Positions 9,239 to 40,807 of a DNA stretch of 56,258 nucleotides are shown here, piece by piece (positions within the stretch are counted from its first letter, which is position 1; every line of letters starts with the position of its first letter). A model generated the notes under the pieces. That model saw only the letters and a list, made by a program, of their open reading frames with translations. It was not told the DNA's origin and did no database searches. Made by a program: the position numbers and the translations under genes. This DNA comes from Phycisphaerae bacterium. Lineage in GTDB: Bacteria; Planctomycetota; Phycisphaerae; JAAYCJ01. The stretch is from positions 1 through 56,258 of the forward strand of contig JAAYCJ010000016.1 of the NCBI GenBank assembly GCA_012729815.1, read 5' to 3'.

Positions 9239-9871
9239 TTATCGACTGGACAACTCGACGATCAACTGCTCCTCGACCGGGATCTGGACGTCCTCGCGCG
9301 TGGGCAGTCCCTTGACGGTTGCTTCGAGTTTCCCGCGATCGATTTCGAGCCACGGCTGAATCTGCCGGTTCGGGTCCATCTCCAAGAACGCCTTGACCGC
9401 CTTGGCCGACTTCTCGGTCGGCTTCAGCGTGACGGCGTCGCCCGGCCGCACCAGGTAGCTCGGGCGGTCGATCTTACGGCCGTTGACGCGGATGTGCCCG
9501 TGGGTGATCAACTCCCGGGCCGCCTTGCGCGACAGCCCGAAGCCCACCTTGTAGAGCACATTGTCGAGCCGGCGTTCGAGCAGAACGAGCAGGTTGACCC
9601 CGGTGTTGCCCTTGAGCCGCTCAGCCATGCGGAAGTAGATCATGAATTGCCGTTCCAGCACGCCGTAGTAGCGCTTGACCTTCTGCTTCTCGCGCAGACG
9701 CACCGCGTACTCGCTGGACTTTCCTCGGCGCCACGAGTGCTGTCCGGGCGGGTTGTTCCGGCCGGGGCGTTCCATGGCGCACTTGGCGGTGTGGCAGCGA
9801 ATCCCCTTCAGGAGGAGCTTGATGCCTTCTCGCCGGCACTGACGACAGGATGGTCCTGTGATTCTACCCAT
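9239..9871 (-). CDS. rpsD: Small ribosomal subunit protein uS4
   Basis: 210 residues. It begins M-G-R-I-T-G-P-S-C-R-Q-C-R, and a second pair C-H-T-A-K-C follows, giving the four-cysteine zinc-binding form. The S4 RNA-binding domain (R-L-D-N-V-L-Y-K-V-G-F) is in the middle. uS4 is a primary 16S rRNA binder and assembly nucleator. A GTG at 9883 would add four residues; the ATG at 9871 matches the usual family start. Confidence 0.96.
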   Translation of the reverse strand: MGRITGPSCRQCRREGIKLLLKGIRCHTAKCAMERPGRNNPPGQHSWRRGKSSEYAVRLREKQKVKRYYGVLERQFMIYFRMAERLKGNTGVNLLVLLERRLDNVLYKVGFGLSRKAARELITHGHIRVNGRKIDRPSYLVRPGDAVTLKPTEKSAKAVKAFLEMDPNRQIQPWLEIDRGKLEATVKGLPTREDVQIPVEEQLIVELSSR

Positions 9872-19703: not shown

Positions 19704-20042
19704 CTATGCCTGTGCCTGGTCCACTTCAATGTGGATGTGACTGGTCCGCCGCTTGATCACGAACATCCGACCGCGGTCGCCCATCTTCAGACGCTTCAGC
19801 GGCGTCCCCTCGTCGATCCGCGCCGCCGAGACGAACAACGCCTCGCGGTCCGCGTCGCCCTGGGACTGGGCGTTGCTCACCGCCGACTGCAAGACCTTGC
19901 GGATCATGTAGCTCGCCCGCTTCGGAGTGAACTTCAGCAGGTCCAGCGCCTCCGCGGCGTTCCGCCCCCGGATCATGTCGATCACCAGGCGGGCCTTCCG
20001 GGCCGATATCTGTGCTCCTCGATGTGTCGCAGACCAAGGCAT
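19704..20042 (-). CDS. rplV: Large ribosomal subunit protein uL22
   Basis: 112 residues. A-R-L-V-I-D-M-I-R-G-R, the long hairpin that reaches into the exit tunnel, and the end K-R-R-T-S-H-I-H-I identify uL22. It ends 18 bp before rpsC. Confidence 0.96.
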   Translation of the reverse strand: MPWSATHRGAQISARKARLVIDMIRGRNAAEALDLLKFTPKRASYMIRKVLQSAVSNAQSQGDADREALFVSAARIDEGTPLKRLKMGDRGRMFVIKRRTSHIHIEVDQAQA

Positions 20043-25348: not shown

Positions 25349-25681
25349 ATGCCCGCTCTGCCGCCCGCAACGCAAACCGACCGATTCTGGGCCGCCCTCG
25401 ACCAGCTCACCTCGCAGTCCGCGATCCGCATCGACGGCCCGCGCGGCAGCGCCCATCCGCGATTCCCCGACTTCATCTACCCGCTGGACTACGGCTACCT
25501 CGAAGGCGCCCAAGCCGCCGACGGCAACCCGATCGACCTGTGGCGAGGGACTCTCCCAGCCGACCGCGTGACCGCGGTGATCTGCACCGTGGATCTGCTC
25601 AAACGGGATACCGAAATCAAACTCCTGATCGGCTGCTCATCCCAGGAGGCCGTCCTGATCGAACGACCCGCCATGCCCTGA
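25349..25681 (+). CDS. Small inorganic-pyrophosphatase-like protein
   Basis: 110 residues. R-F-W-A-A-L-D is followed by I-D-G-P-R-G-S-A-H-P-R-F-P-D-F-I-Y-P-L-D-Y-G-Y-L, D-G-N-P-I-D-L-W-R-G and V-I-C-T-V-D-L-L-K-R-D-T-E-I-K-L-L-I-G-C. These follow the order of the family I pyrophosphatase barrel (the R-x-x-Y-P-x-D-Y-G-Y region and the D-G-D-x-x-D site), but the protein is only two-thirds of normal length and the active-site aspartates are reduced (D-G-N-P-I-D). It resembles short pyrophosphatase-like proteins known from several phyla; whether it hydrolyses PPi is uncertain. It diverges from the PPi-phosphofructokinase. An AGAAAGGA ribosome site precedes the ATG. Confidence 0.75.
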   Translation: MPALPPATQTDRFWAALDQLTSQSAIRIDGPRGSAHPRFPDFIYPLDYGYLEGAQAADGNPIDLWRGTLPADRVTAVICTVDLLKRDTEIKLLIGCSSQEAVLIERPAMP

Positions 25682-26098
25682 CGCTCCACCACCGGCCACG
25701 CGCTCATCACCGACGCCGCCTGCCGCCGATCGCCAACCCAACAACCGCAAGAATATGCCTTTCTCTCTGCATGTACGACTCAAGACCCGCGGCGCAGTTC
25801 CGCAATAGGTCGTAGTACGACCTGTCGTGGTCGCCGTCCGCAATAGCACCGGATGCCGGCAAGCAGCCCCTGCCGCGACACGCAGCGCCGCCGCAGATCG
25901 CTTCCACGCTCAGGCGCATGGCCGAGGGCGATTGCCCGAATGTGGGTCCTGCCGCCCTTGGCAGAGTCTCTGCCTCCTTCGACCACCGCGCCGGAGCCAG
26001 AACGTTCGGTCTACACTCGTCAACTCAGCCGAGAGTCTGGACGTCCCCCCAACCGCCGCAACGCCCATCACCTCCCCGCCAAAGGGCACAAACCCAAA
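25682..26098. other. 417-bp convergent intergenic region with palindrome copy 1
   Basis: Between the pyrophosphatase-like stop and the stop of the APH-fold gene. It carries one copy of the ATAGGTCGT palindrome family (25804-25826) and a further isolated CCGCAATAG half-element near 25841. No coding region is supported. Confidence 0.55.
25804..25826 (-). repeat. Dispersed palindrome family, copy 1
   Basis: Arms AGGTCGTA and TACGACCT surround a single G (25807-25823). Read on the minus strand, the element has the form CGA-Y-AGGTCGT-NNN-ACGACCTATTG, shared with copies at 35259 and 35356. Confidence 0.75.
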
Positions 26099-27268
26099 TC
26101 AGTCCCCTGGCAGTTGGGGCAACAACCGTTCGCACAGCTCAACACACACGTGAATATAATCTCGCGGGCCGGTCACACCGGGCACCCACCGCAGCCCCTT
26201 CACGCACCCCGCAATCCGCCCGAGATGCTGGACGAACTGCGCCCAGACCACCCGCGCCATGAACCGATCGTGAGCGATGGTCCGTCCCGTTCGGGCCGCG
26301 TACTCGTCGAGGTAGAATCGCACCAGATCGGCCTTCTCCGCCTCGGCCCCGTCCTTCAGCCGCCACAGCAGGACGTAGATCTCAGCCTCCATCGGAGCCA
26401 GACTCGCCGTGCCCCAGTCGAACGTCACCACCTCCTCGACCGTCCCAACCCGCCGCACGCCCACGTTGTCCGGGGCAATGTCCGCCGTCACGCACACGAG
26501 TTCCCACTCGTCCACCCATCCGGGCCGGCGTTCGACTGCCTGCAGGCATCGATCGATCACCGCCCGCTCATGGTCGCTGACGCCCAAGCCGGCCAGGAAA
26601 GACGCATCCGCCATGGCCTCGGCGACGTCCGCCGCCAGGAACGTCAAGCCGGGCCAGTCGTCCGGGAACAAAGCCGCTAATTCCCCGATCCGCGCACGGC
26701 TGTGGGCGTGCACGTCGGCGGCGTGACTCATCAGCGACAGGCCGCGGTCACGCGTAAAACACTTCGAGTCCGCCGACACCGTCTCCGGCCACCCGACTTG
26801 CGGAAAGTACTCCTGCAGAATCCAGAACTCACGCGCCGCGACGTCCGCACGCGTCGCATAGACCTTCGGCGCCCATCGGACCTCCTGACGCCCCCACCAC
26901 TCCGCCCACGCCACCTCCGCCAGACGTCCCGAAAATCGCCTGTCAAGTTTGAACAGGTTCACCGAGTCGGGGCAGAGAATCTTCGCCGCCACGTCCAGGC
27001 TGTCCCCGTCTTCAAACTCCACAGCCAGACGCAGGACCGTCGCCCCGGAGTGGCTCACCCCTCCCCACACCAAAGCGCACAGATTCGTGGTCCGGCAACG
27101 GCGGATGCCCACCCTTCGCCCAAGCCAAGCCGACAGGACGTCCTCCAGATACGGCCGGTCCAGCCGAGGCGGAACGTACACAAACGCCTGATCCTCCGCG
27201 CAGGCGACACGGATCAGATCGTTGCCGACCACTCGGGAGTCTTCACAACGTCCTTTGTTCGCCGCCAT
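26099..27268 (-). CDS. Aminoglycoside-phosphotransferase-fold protein of unknown substrate
   Basis: 389 residues. The C-terminal half has the layout of APH/choline-kinase-like enzymes: a catalytic-loop-like T-A-D-I-A-P-D-N (usual form H-x-D-x4-N) at about residue 260, then V-V-T-F-D-W-G-T-A, corresponding to the metal-binding D-x-(D/E/G) loop, and a helical tail. The loop Asp and Asn are kept, but the first His is Thr. The N-terminal lobe is diverged. Whether it phosphorylates a small molecule or is inactive cannot be told. It stands alone, convergent with the pyrophosphatase-like gene. Confidence 0.65.
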   Translation of the reverse strand: MAANKGRCEDSRVVGNDLIRVACAEDQAFVYVPPRLDRPYLEDVLSAWLGRRVGIRRCRTTNLCALVWGGVSHSGATVLRLAVEFEDGDSLDVAAKILCPDSVNLFKLDRRFSGRLAEVAWAEWWGRQEVRWAPKVYATRADVAAREFWILQEYFPQVGWPETVSADSKCFTRDRGLSLMSHAADVHAHSRARIGELAALFPDDWPGLTFLAADVAEAMADASFLAGLGVSDHERAVIDRCLQAVERRPGWVDEWELVCVTADIAPDNVGVRRVGTVEEVVTFDWGTASLAPMEAEIYVLLWRLKDGAEAEKADLVRFYLDEYAARTGRTIAHDRFMARVVWAQFVQHLGRIAGCVKGLRWVPGVTGPRDYIHVCVELCERLLPQLPGD

Positions 27269-27499: not shown

Positions 27500-28825
27500 T
27501 CAGTCCTTGATCCGCGAACTGACGCTGGCCGGAAGGTTCTTCATCAGGTACTGCAGGAAGTAACGCCGCAGGTGCATCTTCTTGACCACGTATTCCTCAA
27601 ACTGCTTCCAGGTCACCGTCCCGCCGTTGCGGTCGATGAACTCCTCGATGACCTTCCGCAGCGGAACGCGGCGCTGGGCATGCTCGGCCCGGCAGACGTG
27701 CGGGAACCGCGGATACGCCAGTTCCTTGCTGCCCGATTCCTTGAGCCACCCGTAAAGACTCTCCGGCGTGGTCATGCCCACCTTCTCAAGCCGCTGGCGG
27801 TAGACCGCAAACGCCCCGTACGCAGCGACGTACTTGACCTCGTCGTTGAGGTGGTCGAAGAACCACTGCTCCACGTCCGTGATCAGCTTGGGCGACGGGG
27901 CCATGTGCTTCAGGTGCATGAACTTGCCCCGGCCGACCGGCACCACGTCCTCAGCCAGCCAGATCCGGTTGTACGCGTACCGGTGCGTCACCTTGTGCCC
28001 GCGCCGCTTCGACAACTCGTCGGCGATTTCCGTAAAGTGCATCGGACGACCGGCCTCATCCAGAATCGCCGAGACCGCCGACGCGACAAAACCGCGCTCC
28101 AGATCCCACTGGCTGGCCGTAAACACCGTCCCGTTCTCGTAGACCACCTGCTCGGCCACCGCCTCGTCGGTGTCGATCAGGTACCGAACCAGAGCCTCCG
28201 AAAAACCGCGGACCTTCTTGGCCTTGGCCCGGCACGCCCCCTTGCTCCGGTCCCACAACGCCGAAGCCGCCTTCGCCACCGGCATCGACGCGGTCTCCTC
28301 GATCAGCTTGATCAGGTCCTCGCGGACCTTCTTGGCCTCTAGGCACGGGTGCTCTGCGAGGCAGACGTCCTGCTCGCCGAAGCCCTCGAACCCGAAGTGC
28401 AGCAGAAACGTCCGCAAAATCCGAGGCTCGGGCTTCTGTTTCCATTTGAACTCCGCCGCGACCTTCTCGCTCAACTCCTCAGCCGACATCACCCCGCCCC
28501 ACGCGAACAGGGTCTGCTCGCAGGCGTTCCAGAAGGGGGCCAGTTTCGCGAAATGATCCTCTTCCTCCAGTTGTTCAACGCACATGTTGACGATCTGGCG
28601 GACCCGCTCGCGGCTCATGCCCATCTTCAAGCCGCACTCGTTGAGGGTGGGCTGCTCCTTCTTCCACAGCCCAAGCCGCATGGTGAAGACCTTGCGGTCC
28701 CGCTCGTTGGCCACGCCTTCGGCGAGCCAACTCTCAACCATGCTCTTGAATGAACCAAAATCCACTCCCGCGACAGGCTTGCCTTGCCGGGGACCGACGC
28801 GACGCGACCGTTTCACAGCGCTCAT
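27500..28825 (-). CDS. Stand-alone sigma-region-4 regulator with HARE-HTH-like domain
   Basis: 441 residues. At about 41-90 is a sigma70 region-4-type helix-turn-helix: T-L-N-E-C-G-L-K-M-G-M-S-R-E-R-V-R-Q-I-V-N, the unit that in sigma factors reads the -35 box. There is no region 2. Two more helical DNA-binding-like parts follow: a winged segment at about 110-150 and, at about 245-305, a segment (A-I-L-D-E-A-G-R-P-M-H-F-T-E-I-A-D-E-L) like HARE-HTH modules found in RpoE-delta and chromatin proteins. The Lys/Arg-rich C-terminus may bind nucleic acid. It could be a nucleoid-linked or RNA-polymerase-linked regulator; the target is unknown. Confidence 0.75.
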   Translation of the reverse strand: MSAVKRSRRVGPRQGKPVAGVDFGSFKSMVESWLAEGVANERDRKVFTMRLGLWKKEQPTLNECGLKMGMSRERVRQIVNMCVEQLEEEDHFAKLAPFWNACEQTLFAWGGVMSAEELSEKVAAEFKWKQKPEPRILRTFLLHFGFEGFGEQDVCLAEHPCLEAKKVREDLIKLIEETASMPVAKAASALWDRSKGACRAKAKKVRGFSEALVRYLIDTDEAVAEQVVYENGTVFTASQWDLERGFVASAVSAILDEAGRPMHFTEIADELSKRRGHKVTHRYAYNRIWLAEDVVPVGRGKFMHLKHMAPSPKLITDVEQWFFDHLNDEVKYVAAYGAFAVYRQRLEKVGMTTPESLYGWLKESGSKELAYPRFPHVCRAEHAQRRVPLRKVIEEFIDRNGGTVTWKQFEEYVVKKMHLRRYFLQYLMKNLPASVSSRIKD

Positions 28826-34591: not shown

Positions 34592-35056
34592 TTAGGGTTT
34601 TAGTTTGCCCACGGTGATGTATGGCTGCATGCCCATGCTGTTCCAGAAGGCGATGGCGGGGGCGTTCTGTGATGCGACGCGGACATCCGCGAATTCGACG
34701 CCGTTGTCCCGAAAGAACCGCAGCGCCATTTGGACCAATCCCCTGCCGACGCCCTGCCGCCGGCATTCAGGCCGGACAAGAAGATCCCAGACCTGCCCCT
34801 GGTGAGAGACGGTGAAGCACGGCGGGCGTTTCAGGATGGAGGCGTGGATGAAGCCGACGAGGCGGCTGTTGTCTTCGGCGACGCCGAGGAGGGTTGTGGT
34901 CTCGTTGGCTGCTTGTCTGATGTGGTCGGCAAAGCCGCCGGCGGCGTCCGCTTTGACTTCGAAATGGGGATCGTAATCCAGATGGGTCCGGATCAACTCG
35001 TGCCAGAGCAGGGCCACGGGCTGGGCGTCGTCAGGTGTTGCCTTGCGAAGCCTCAT
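34592..35056 (-). CDS. GNAT-family N-acetyltransferase
   Basis: 154 residues, one GNAT domain. Motif A, with the acetyl-CoA-binding loop, reads V-W-D-L-L-V-R-P-E-C-R-R-Q-G-V-G-R-G-L. Motif B (A-S-Q-N-A-P-A-I-A-F-W-N-S-M-G-M) follows. The acceptor amine is unknown. The frame extends to 35155, but two close ATGs (35062 and 35056) follow a GGAG; the second, starting M-R-L-R-K-A-T-P-D-D-A, has the better spacing. Confidence 0.88.
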   Translation of the reverse strand: MRLRKATPDDAQPVALLWHELIRTHLDYDPHFEVKADAAGGFADHIRQAANETTTLLGVAEDNSRLVGFIHASILKRPPCFTVSHQGQVWDLLVRPECRRQGVGRGLVQMALRFFRDNGVEFADVRVASQNAPAIAFWNSMGMQPYITVGKLKP

Positions 35057-35258
35057 ATCCATCTCCGAAGCCGACTTCTGATTCCACGCGTATCTCCGTG
35101 TGTCGGCGGATTGCTGGTTTGGGAGGATGCCATCAGAAGCCAAGAGGGCCATCAAGGGCTTGTGCGGGATGCCTCTCGACGGGTGTGGCTGGACAAGGAG
35201 CAGAAGCCACCTCGCCGATGGTGGAATCGTATGGGCGTGTTGGATGGCTTCTGGCGCG

Positions 35259-35279
35259 ATAGGTCGTACAACGACCTAT
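35259..35279 (+). repeat. Dispersed palindrome family, copy 2
   Basis: Perfect 9-bp arms ATAGGTCGT (35259-35267) and ACGACCTAT (35271-35279) around ACA, flanked by CG on the left and TG on the right, as in the other copies. Confidence 0.8.
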
Positions 35280-35355
35280 TGCTGTTGTCGGCCGGCTCGC
35301 ATGAGAGGAGGCGAAACAGCTTCAGAGCGGTTGTATTGGGACATACAGCGGTACG

Positions 35356-35376
35356 ATAGGTCGTGGTACGACCTAT
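35356..35376 (+). repeat. Dispersed palindrome family, copy 3
   Basis: Perfect 9-bp arms ATAGGTCGT (35356-35364) and ACGACCTAT (35368-35376) around GGT. It begins 97 bp after copy 2 in the same orientation. Confidence 0.8.
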
Positions 35377-35384
35377 TGCGGCGA

Positions 35385-35412
35385 AGAGTCCGCCGAGGGC
35401 GGCGGATCTACA
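35385..35412 (+). repeat. GC hairpin repeat (TCCGCCG-AGGG-CGGCGGA), copy 1
   Basis: A 7-bp stem with a 4-nt loop. A second copy is at 40781-40807, with identical hairpin and flanking AG on the left. Confidence 0.7.
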
Positions 35413-35423
35413 TTTGGGCGAAA

Positions 35424-35454
35424 GGACCCCGCTCCCTCACGGTCGCGGCTCTTT
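35424..35454 (+). repeat. CCCCGCTCCCTCAC repeat, copy 1
   Basis: CCCCGCTCCCTCAC followed by GGTCGCGGCTCTTT. Near-identical copy at 38709-38739 and a decayed copy at 39537-39570. Confidence 0.7.
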
Positions 35455-35479
35455 GGGGAGTGGTCGCGCGAAGTGTCAG

Positions 35480-38609: not shown

Positions 38610-38708
38610 TGGGAGTCTCCGGGCAGCGTCGGGAGCAGAGAGCGAAGCAGGTGGAGTGGCGGGAGGTCGGCAGAGGAGAGGCTTTGGGGGCCGTTTTCGG
38701 CGGCTGAG

Positions 38709-38739
38709 GGCCCCGCTCCCTCACAGTCGCGGCTCTTTT
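38709..38739 (+). repeat. CCCCGCTCCCTCAC repeat, copy 2
   Basis: CCCCGCTCCCTCAC followed by AGTCGCGGCTCTTTT, one base different from the copy at 35424. It lies between the CocE-like stop and the stop of the convergent histidine phosphatase. Confidence 0.7.
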
Positions 38740-39389: not shown

Positions 39390-39739
39390 GGTTCTCCTGA
39401 TCCCGGCTGGGCGTTGCTTTTTGTCGTGATGGTCGGTAGTCCGCTACGCGACGGGGTTGATGATACCGCGATTCGGGCTGGGGATTCAATGGTTGTGGTA
39501 GGGATGGAAAGAGGCTTCAGGGCCGCCTGTGGCGGTTGAGGGGGCTCGCTCCCAGCGGTCGGGGCTCTATCTGGAGGGGAACCGCGATTGGGGATCGGCG
39601 GAGGCGGCGGGTGGCGGAAAAGTAGAATGTCCCCTTTTTCTGAGCGGGGCGGGATTGACTTTGGGGTTGGGCGGCGGTAGAGGTATGCGGCGTTGTGTTT
39701 GGATGAGGAAGATGGCGTGTGCATGGCGAGGAGTGTGCG
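39390..39739. other. 350-bp divergent intergenic region with repeats
   Basis: Between the histidine phosphatase start and the second URO-D-like gene. It holds a decayed CCCCGCTCCCTC-type element (39537-39570) and copy 2 of the AAAAGTAGAATGT element (39613-39639), in the same order as upstream of the first URO-D-like gene. No gene is seen. Confidence 0.6.
39613..39639 (+). repeat. GCGGAAAAGTAGAATGT repeat, copy 2
   Basis: Same element as at 35480-35507, with C instead of T in the pyrimidine stretch, and again followed by a run of T. Confidence 0.75.
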
Positions 39740-40780: not shown

Positions 40781-40807
40781 GAGTCCGCCGAGGGCGGCGG
40801 ACCCACA
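40781..40807 (+). repeat. GC hairpin repeat (TCCGCCG-AGGG-CGGCGGA), copy 2
   Basis: Same stem and loop as at 35385-35412. It sits just after the URO-D-like stop and just before the phosphomannomutase promoter, and could terminate transcription only weakly because no T run follows. Confidence 0.7.

Follow-up and report, generated by a model that had tools for sequence, protein, structure and literature searches.

In the window, the whole 56,258-nucleotide stretch of DNA analysed here, a 548-bp region between divergent GNAT acetyltransferase and URO-D-like genes carries two copies of a short palindrome, which lie upstream of both genes, and three commoner repeat families (A, B and C). A third copy lies between the convergent 3' ends of two other genes, one pyrophosphatase-like (weak Pfam match below the cut-off) and one with no Pfam match, and a probable fourth was found on another contig of the same genome. 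The features are as follows:

25349-25681, + strand: gene converging on copy 3
25802-25827, - strand: copy 3 of the palindrome, CGACAGGTCGT-ACT-ACGACCTATTGC
26099-27268, - strand: second gene converging on copy 3
34592-35155, - strand: GNAT acetyltransferase gene, start from the sequence read near 35058
35257-35282, + strand: copy 1, CGATAGGTCGT-ACA-ACGACCTATTGC, with perfect 9-bp arms at 35259-35279 and a 3-base centre
35354-35379, + strand: copy 2, CGATAGGTCGT-GGT-ACGACCTATTGC, with perfect 9-bp arms at 35356-35376
35379-35421, - strand: repeat A, GTAG followed in most copies by a TCCGCCG...CGGCGGA palindrome; abuts copy 2; at least 22 further matches
35422-35460, + strand: repeat B, GGACCCCGCTCCCTCACGGTCGCGGCTC; at least 12 matches elsewhere in the genome
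35479-35506, + strand: repeat C, GGGCGGAAAAGTAGAATGTCTCC; at least 10 matches elsewhere in the genome
35607-36749, + strand: URO-D-like gene
G000:C149:17852-17877: copy 4 (probable), intergenic, 2 mismatches to the 26-base form

Copy 2 starts 97 bp past the start of copy 1 in the same orientation, and copy 3 is inverted relative to both. The three copies, their orientation, the common form CGAYAGGTCGT-NNN-ACGACCTATTGC with the centres ACA, GGT and ACT, and their position between genes had been described in an earlier note made from the sequence, and all of this was borne out, the three copies lying outside called genes. The palindrome in these copies is not a chance occurrence. Its 21-base form, AGGTCGTNNNACGACCTATTG, gave 6 strand-matches in the window with up to 3 mismatches, corresponding to 3 places, whereas 100 dinucleotide shuffles of the window gave a mean of 0.03.

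We searched the whole of its own genome (5,468,235 bases in 367 contigs, the window being contig C16) with the 26-base form, allowing up to 3 mismatches, and recovered copies 1-3 and the site at C149:17852-17877; the backwards control gave 0. The four copies scored 45.5-48.8 bits with a covariance model, the next place in the genome reaching 19.5 bits. Copy 4 was included in building this model, so its score is not independent, while the pattern search is. A relaxed 12-base core with up to 1 mismatch occurred at 22 places, the three of the window included, compared to 49 for the backwards control; since the control was commoner, the 18 sites beyond the four copies were discarded as chance. The earlier note had taken three copies or fewer genome-wide as a sign against a repeat family, and the genome comes close to this, with three sure copies and one probable fourth in 5.47 Mb. 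Three of the four copies fall inside 9.6 kb (P about 4e-5 under random placement).

The palindrome is about 26 bp long and consists of a stem of 11 bp, with an imperfect G.T or C.A pair, around a 3-base centre; its ends are CGAY on one side and TTGC or TCGC on the other. The 9 perfect arm pairs of copies 1 and 2 can be extended to 11 with a G.T pair, and a C.A mismatch is present in the stem of copies 3 and 4. Six of the 26 columns vary, including all 4 central ones (hypergeometric P about 0.001). Moreover, certain asymmetric columns are held in common, namely G7/T29 in copies 1-3 and C9/A27 in copies 3 and 4.

Beyond the 26-bp borders, no significant likeness of the flanks was found. The best of six comparisons, a 75-bp downstream alignment of copies 1 and 3 (GCGGTTG..TTGGG), had a score of 17, which was reached in 7.7% of 1000 shuffles (frequency 0.077), and the remaining five pairs were equalled in 9.5-99.8% of shuffles. 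The flanks being no more alike than shuffled sequence, the longer unit of 70-100 bp proposed in the earlier note found no support. A MITE is a longer unit with terminal inverted repeats, a target-site duplication and a relation to a transposase; as there is no longer unit and no likeness of the flanks beyond 26 bp, the suggestion of a MITE family found none either. The peptide reading D-R-S-x-x-D-L-L added nothing: the stop-to-stop frames have coding scores of 0.7, -35.6, -13.7 and -49.7 bits, which gave no coding signal and led to the rejection of a coding repeat, and the centre changes among copies are non-synonymous.

The gene contexts of the copies are mixed, with two copies between divergent genes, one between convergent and one between tandem genes. 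The intergenic region around copy 4 measures 788 bp (L083:9607-10394, with the gene start at 9606 by reading), and the copy precedes, by about 250 bp, a gene with no Pfam match whose name is unrelated to the others. This region also contains a GTAG-headed palindrome, a second palindrome and a copy of repeat A. The numbers of matches given above for repeats A, B and C are lower bounds obtained by BLAST, with 48 matches listed and 40 of 110 candidates scored. Judged from its sequence, repeat A is a GTAG-type REP. Our palindrome was also considered as a part of repeat A; this was rejected by eye, as it is missing from the 60 bp upstream of the other A copies examined. In a sample of 515,492 bases (28 stretches, window included), 75 palindromes with arms of at least 8 and loops of 3-7 bases formed 62 groups, three of which had three or more members; this survey demands perfect arms of 8 and may therefore miss copies 3 and 4.

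We then looked at other genomes. The exact oriented 21-mer occurred in 3 stretches of genome_contigs and in none of viral_contigs. Two of the three stretches come from Comamonadaceae, are almost identical and carry an A-run next to the palindrome; the third, from Flavobacteriaceae, has a T-run in the loop. Judged by eye, all three were taken as unrelated hairpins and not as family members. Among relatives, the 16-base form with up to 1 mismatch was found in 1 of 101 genomes, its own genome only, in keeping with a family that is young or private. When a second mismatch was allowed, matches appeared in 13 of 392 genomes of the phylum and in 19 of 397 of the class (own genome counted in each); all those outside its own genome had exactly 2 mismatches, and many genomes were also matched by the backwards control. 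In a search of 31 genomes, the covariance model gave weak matches in relatives, the best reaching 23.9 bits in a class relative (G015:C96; E 3.3e-4 for that genome). This sequence is similar with its core broken, and it may be a distant cousin. The URO-D-like gene was sought in 20 relatives, and its counterparts there were all distant (identity no higher than 38% among the matches listed), so that no orthologous intergenic region was comparable. As far as tested, the palindrome family is private to its own genome among the genomes sampled, which include no second species of the genus.

Given that the palindrome lies in REP-rich mosaics, that asymmetric columns are common to its copies, that its gene contexts are mixed and that it is absent from relatives, we lean towards reading it as a minor, species-restricted, untagged REP-like repeat of about four copies in intergenic repeat mosaics. 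The common asymmetric columns argue for common descent of the copies and not for independent origin; the copies would thus derive from one another, and they probably spread by REP-like single-strand or hairpin-based copying with a putative transposase acting in trans. They may have no present function.

According to Di Nocera et al. (2013, PMC3733652), GTAG- and CGTC-tagged REPs are mostly intergenic palindromes of 20-40 bp with short loops; some families are species-specific and sometimes interleaved with other repeats, and such REPs are reported in Planctomycetes. Our palindrome resembles them in being a short-loop intergenic palindrome, capable of forming a stem-loop, species-restricted and interleaved with other repeats, and differs in having no GTAG or CGTC head and about 4 copies, three of them sure and one probable, instead of tens to hundreds. 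RAYT-associated REPs usually exceed 100 copies per genome, as stated by Nunvar et al. (2010, PMC2817692); like these, the palindrome is interrupted by a few bases and its host genome has two Y1_Tnp-domain genes, and unlike them it is present in few copies and flanks neither gene.

The two Y1_Tnp genes are those over the cut-off, and as the genome is incomplete others could be missed. The first (C71:17862-18200) has two inverted copies of repeat C just upstream (C71:17703-17790), and repeat C is likely a transposase-linked repeat. On either side of the second stand long near-perfect palindromes (L089:1699-1754 and 2755-2814, on G000:C348), of a 56-64 bp TIR-type repeat family (AAAATTAAACTTTCAAGACCTGACCCC...); in this the gene resembles the TIR-flanked genes described in PMC3733652. 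One such palindrome also stands alone at L167:6463-6526 (G000:C242). The 26-bp palindrome was absent from about 2 kb either side of both genes (5 kb around each searched).

A GTAG or CGTC head was sought at the palindrome ends and was not found. Because of this, of the count of about four copies and of its absence near both Y1_Tnp genes, the palindrome is not a canonical REP; what stands of the initial REP proposal is a short, palindromic, intergenic element among REP-type repeats. The REP-like reading also has points against it: the copy number is far below that of published REP families, the head and the transposase link are missing, and the clustering of three of the four copies within 9.6 kb counts against it. 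Moreover, variation concentrated at the centre is easier to reconcile with selection on the arms than with the neutral decay of a dead repeat. The finding is an ordinary one, on which little depends, with no special role found for the palindrome; nevertheless, a palindromic repeat of such low copy number next to commoner REPs could help to study the birth or extinction of repeats.

The same pattern of almost invariant arms around a variable centre is what makes operators of a putative dimeric regulator the second reading in rank, a tentative possibility in which a symmetric dimer would sit on the two arms, leave the central 3 bases uncontacted and use copies 1 and 2 as a pair. Operators of TetR family-type dimeric repressors are odd-centred dyads with invariant arms and a free centre, and our odd-centred 21-bp dyad is like them in all three respects; the paired sites between the divergent GNAT and URO-D-like genes and the local clustering of copies point the same way. 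This reading comes second because the genes near the copies are unrelated and copy 3 is placed where two genes converge; the gene about 250 bp beyond copy 4 has a name unrelated to theirs. Operators of one regulon would lie in the promoter regions of its genes; the contexts here are mixed. Unlike the TetR family-type systems, no regulator gene was recognised beside the copies, the only nearby DNA-binding-type domain being Sigma70_r4 in 27500-28825, and a simple scan, which is weak evidence in this group, revealed no sigma-70-like promoter near copies 1-3. The conserved asymmetry at columns 7/29 is also unexpected in a symmetric operator. The copies may still be protein-binding sites, as the earlier note had proposed. 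A broader version, which we consider rather unlikely, would have the sites bound by a lineage-specific regulator, as its operators, or by a nucleoid-binding protein that nucleates there, at few unrelated loci, some of them non-promoter, with selection holding the arms while the centres drift. If the operator reading were true, the palindrome would point to a new regulator in a poorly studied lineage.

A transcribed RNA hairpin, serving as a terminator, a processing site or an mRNA-stabilising site, is quite unlikely, even if all four copies fold strongly on both strands (z-scores -3.7 to -5.2) and copy 3 is downstream of both genes of a convergent pair. Copies 1 and 2 fold better on the oriented strand (-19.1 and -17.5 vs -14.7 and -13.0 kcal/mol on the opposite strand), while copies 3 and 4 do so on the opposite strand (-17.8 and -21.2 vs -14.3 and -15.2 kcal/mol on the oriented strand). 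The better-folding strand thus differs between copies, and what is kept is therefore arm identity and not pairing on one RNA strand, a result that also counts against the RNA-processing site of the earlier note. Moreover, no compensatory change was found in 11 pairs, the window has no Rfam match, and both flanking genes have copies 1 and 2 on their upstream side. An intrinsic terminator is a G+C-rich stem followed by a T-run; it was rejected, since a T-run is absent and no terminator-like call was made at copies 1-3, copy 4 being judged by eye. Highly improbable, finally, are sites of site-specific recombination that would invert the 9.4 kb separating copy 3 from copies 1/2, or a centromere-like cluster. 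The inverted position of copy 3 and the presence of three copies on a contig carrying ribosomal-protein genes speak for these; however, the central bases, in which strand exchange needs identity, differ among all four copies, a Pfam scan of 15 of the 56 called genes of the window showed no recombinase, and a canonical-looking parS, TGTTCCACGTGGAACA, is present on C214 of this genome, where a second copy with one mismatch lies 41 bp from it.

Further places of the commoner repeats were observed along the way. Repeat A (GTAGnTCCGCCG-CCC-TCGGCGGAnTC) is also present at 40783-40802 of the window and at L083:10132-10151 and 19836-19855, repeat B (CCGCTCCCTCACGGTCGCGGCTC) at 38707-38738 of the window and repeat C (GGCGGAAAAGTAGAATGTC) at 39613-39639. 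The two palindromes beside copy 4, at L083:9728-9757 and 9797-9818, read GTAG-GGTGGATG..CATCCACC and GTGCGTCG-TCC-CGACGCAC, respectively.
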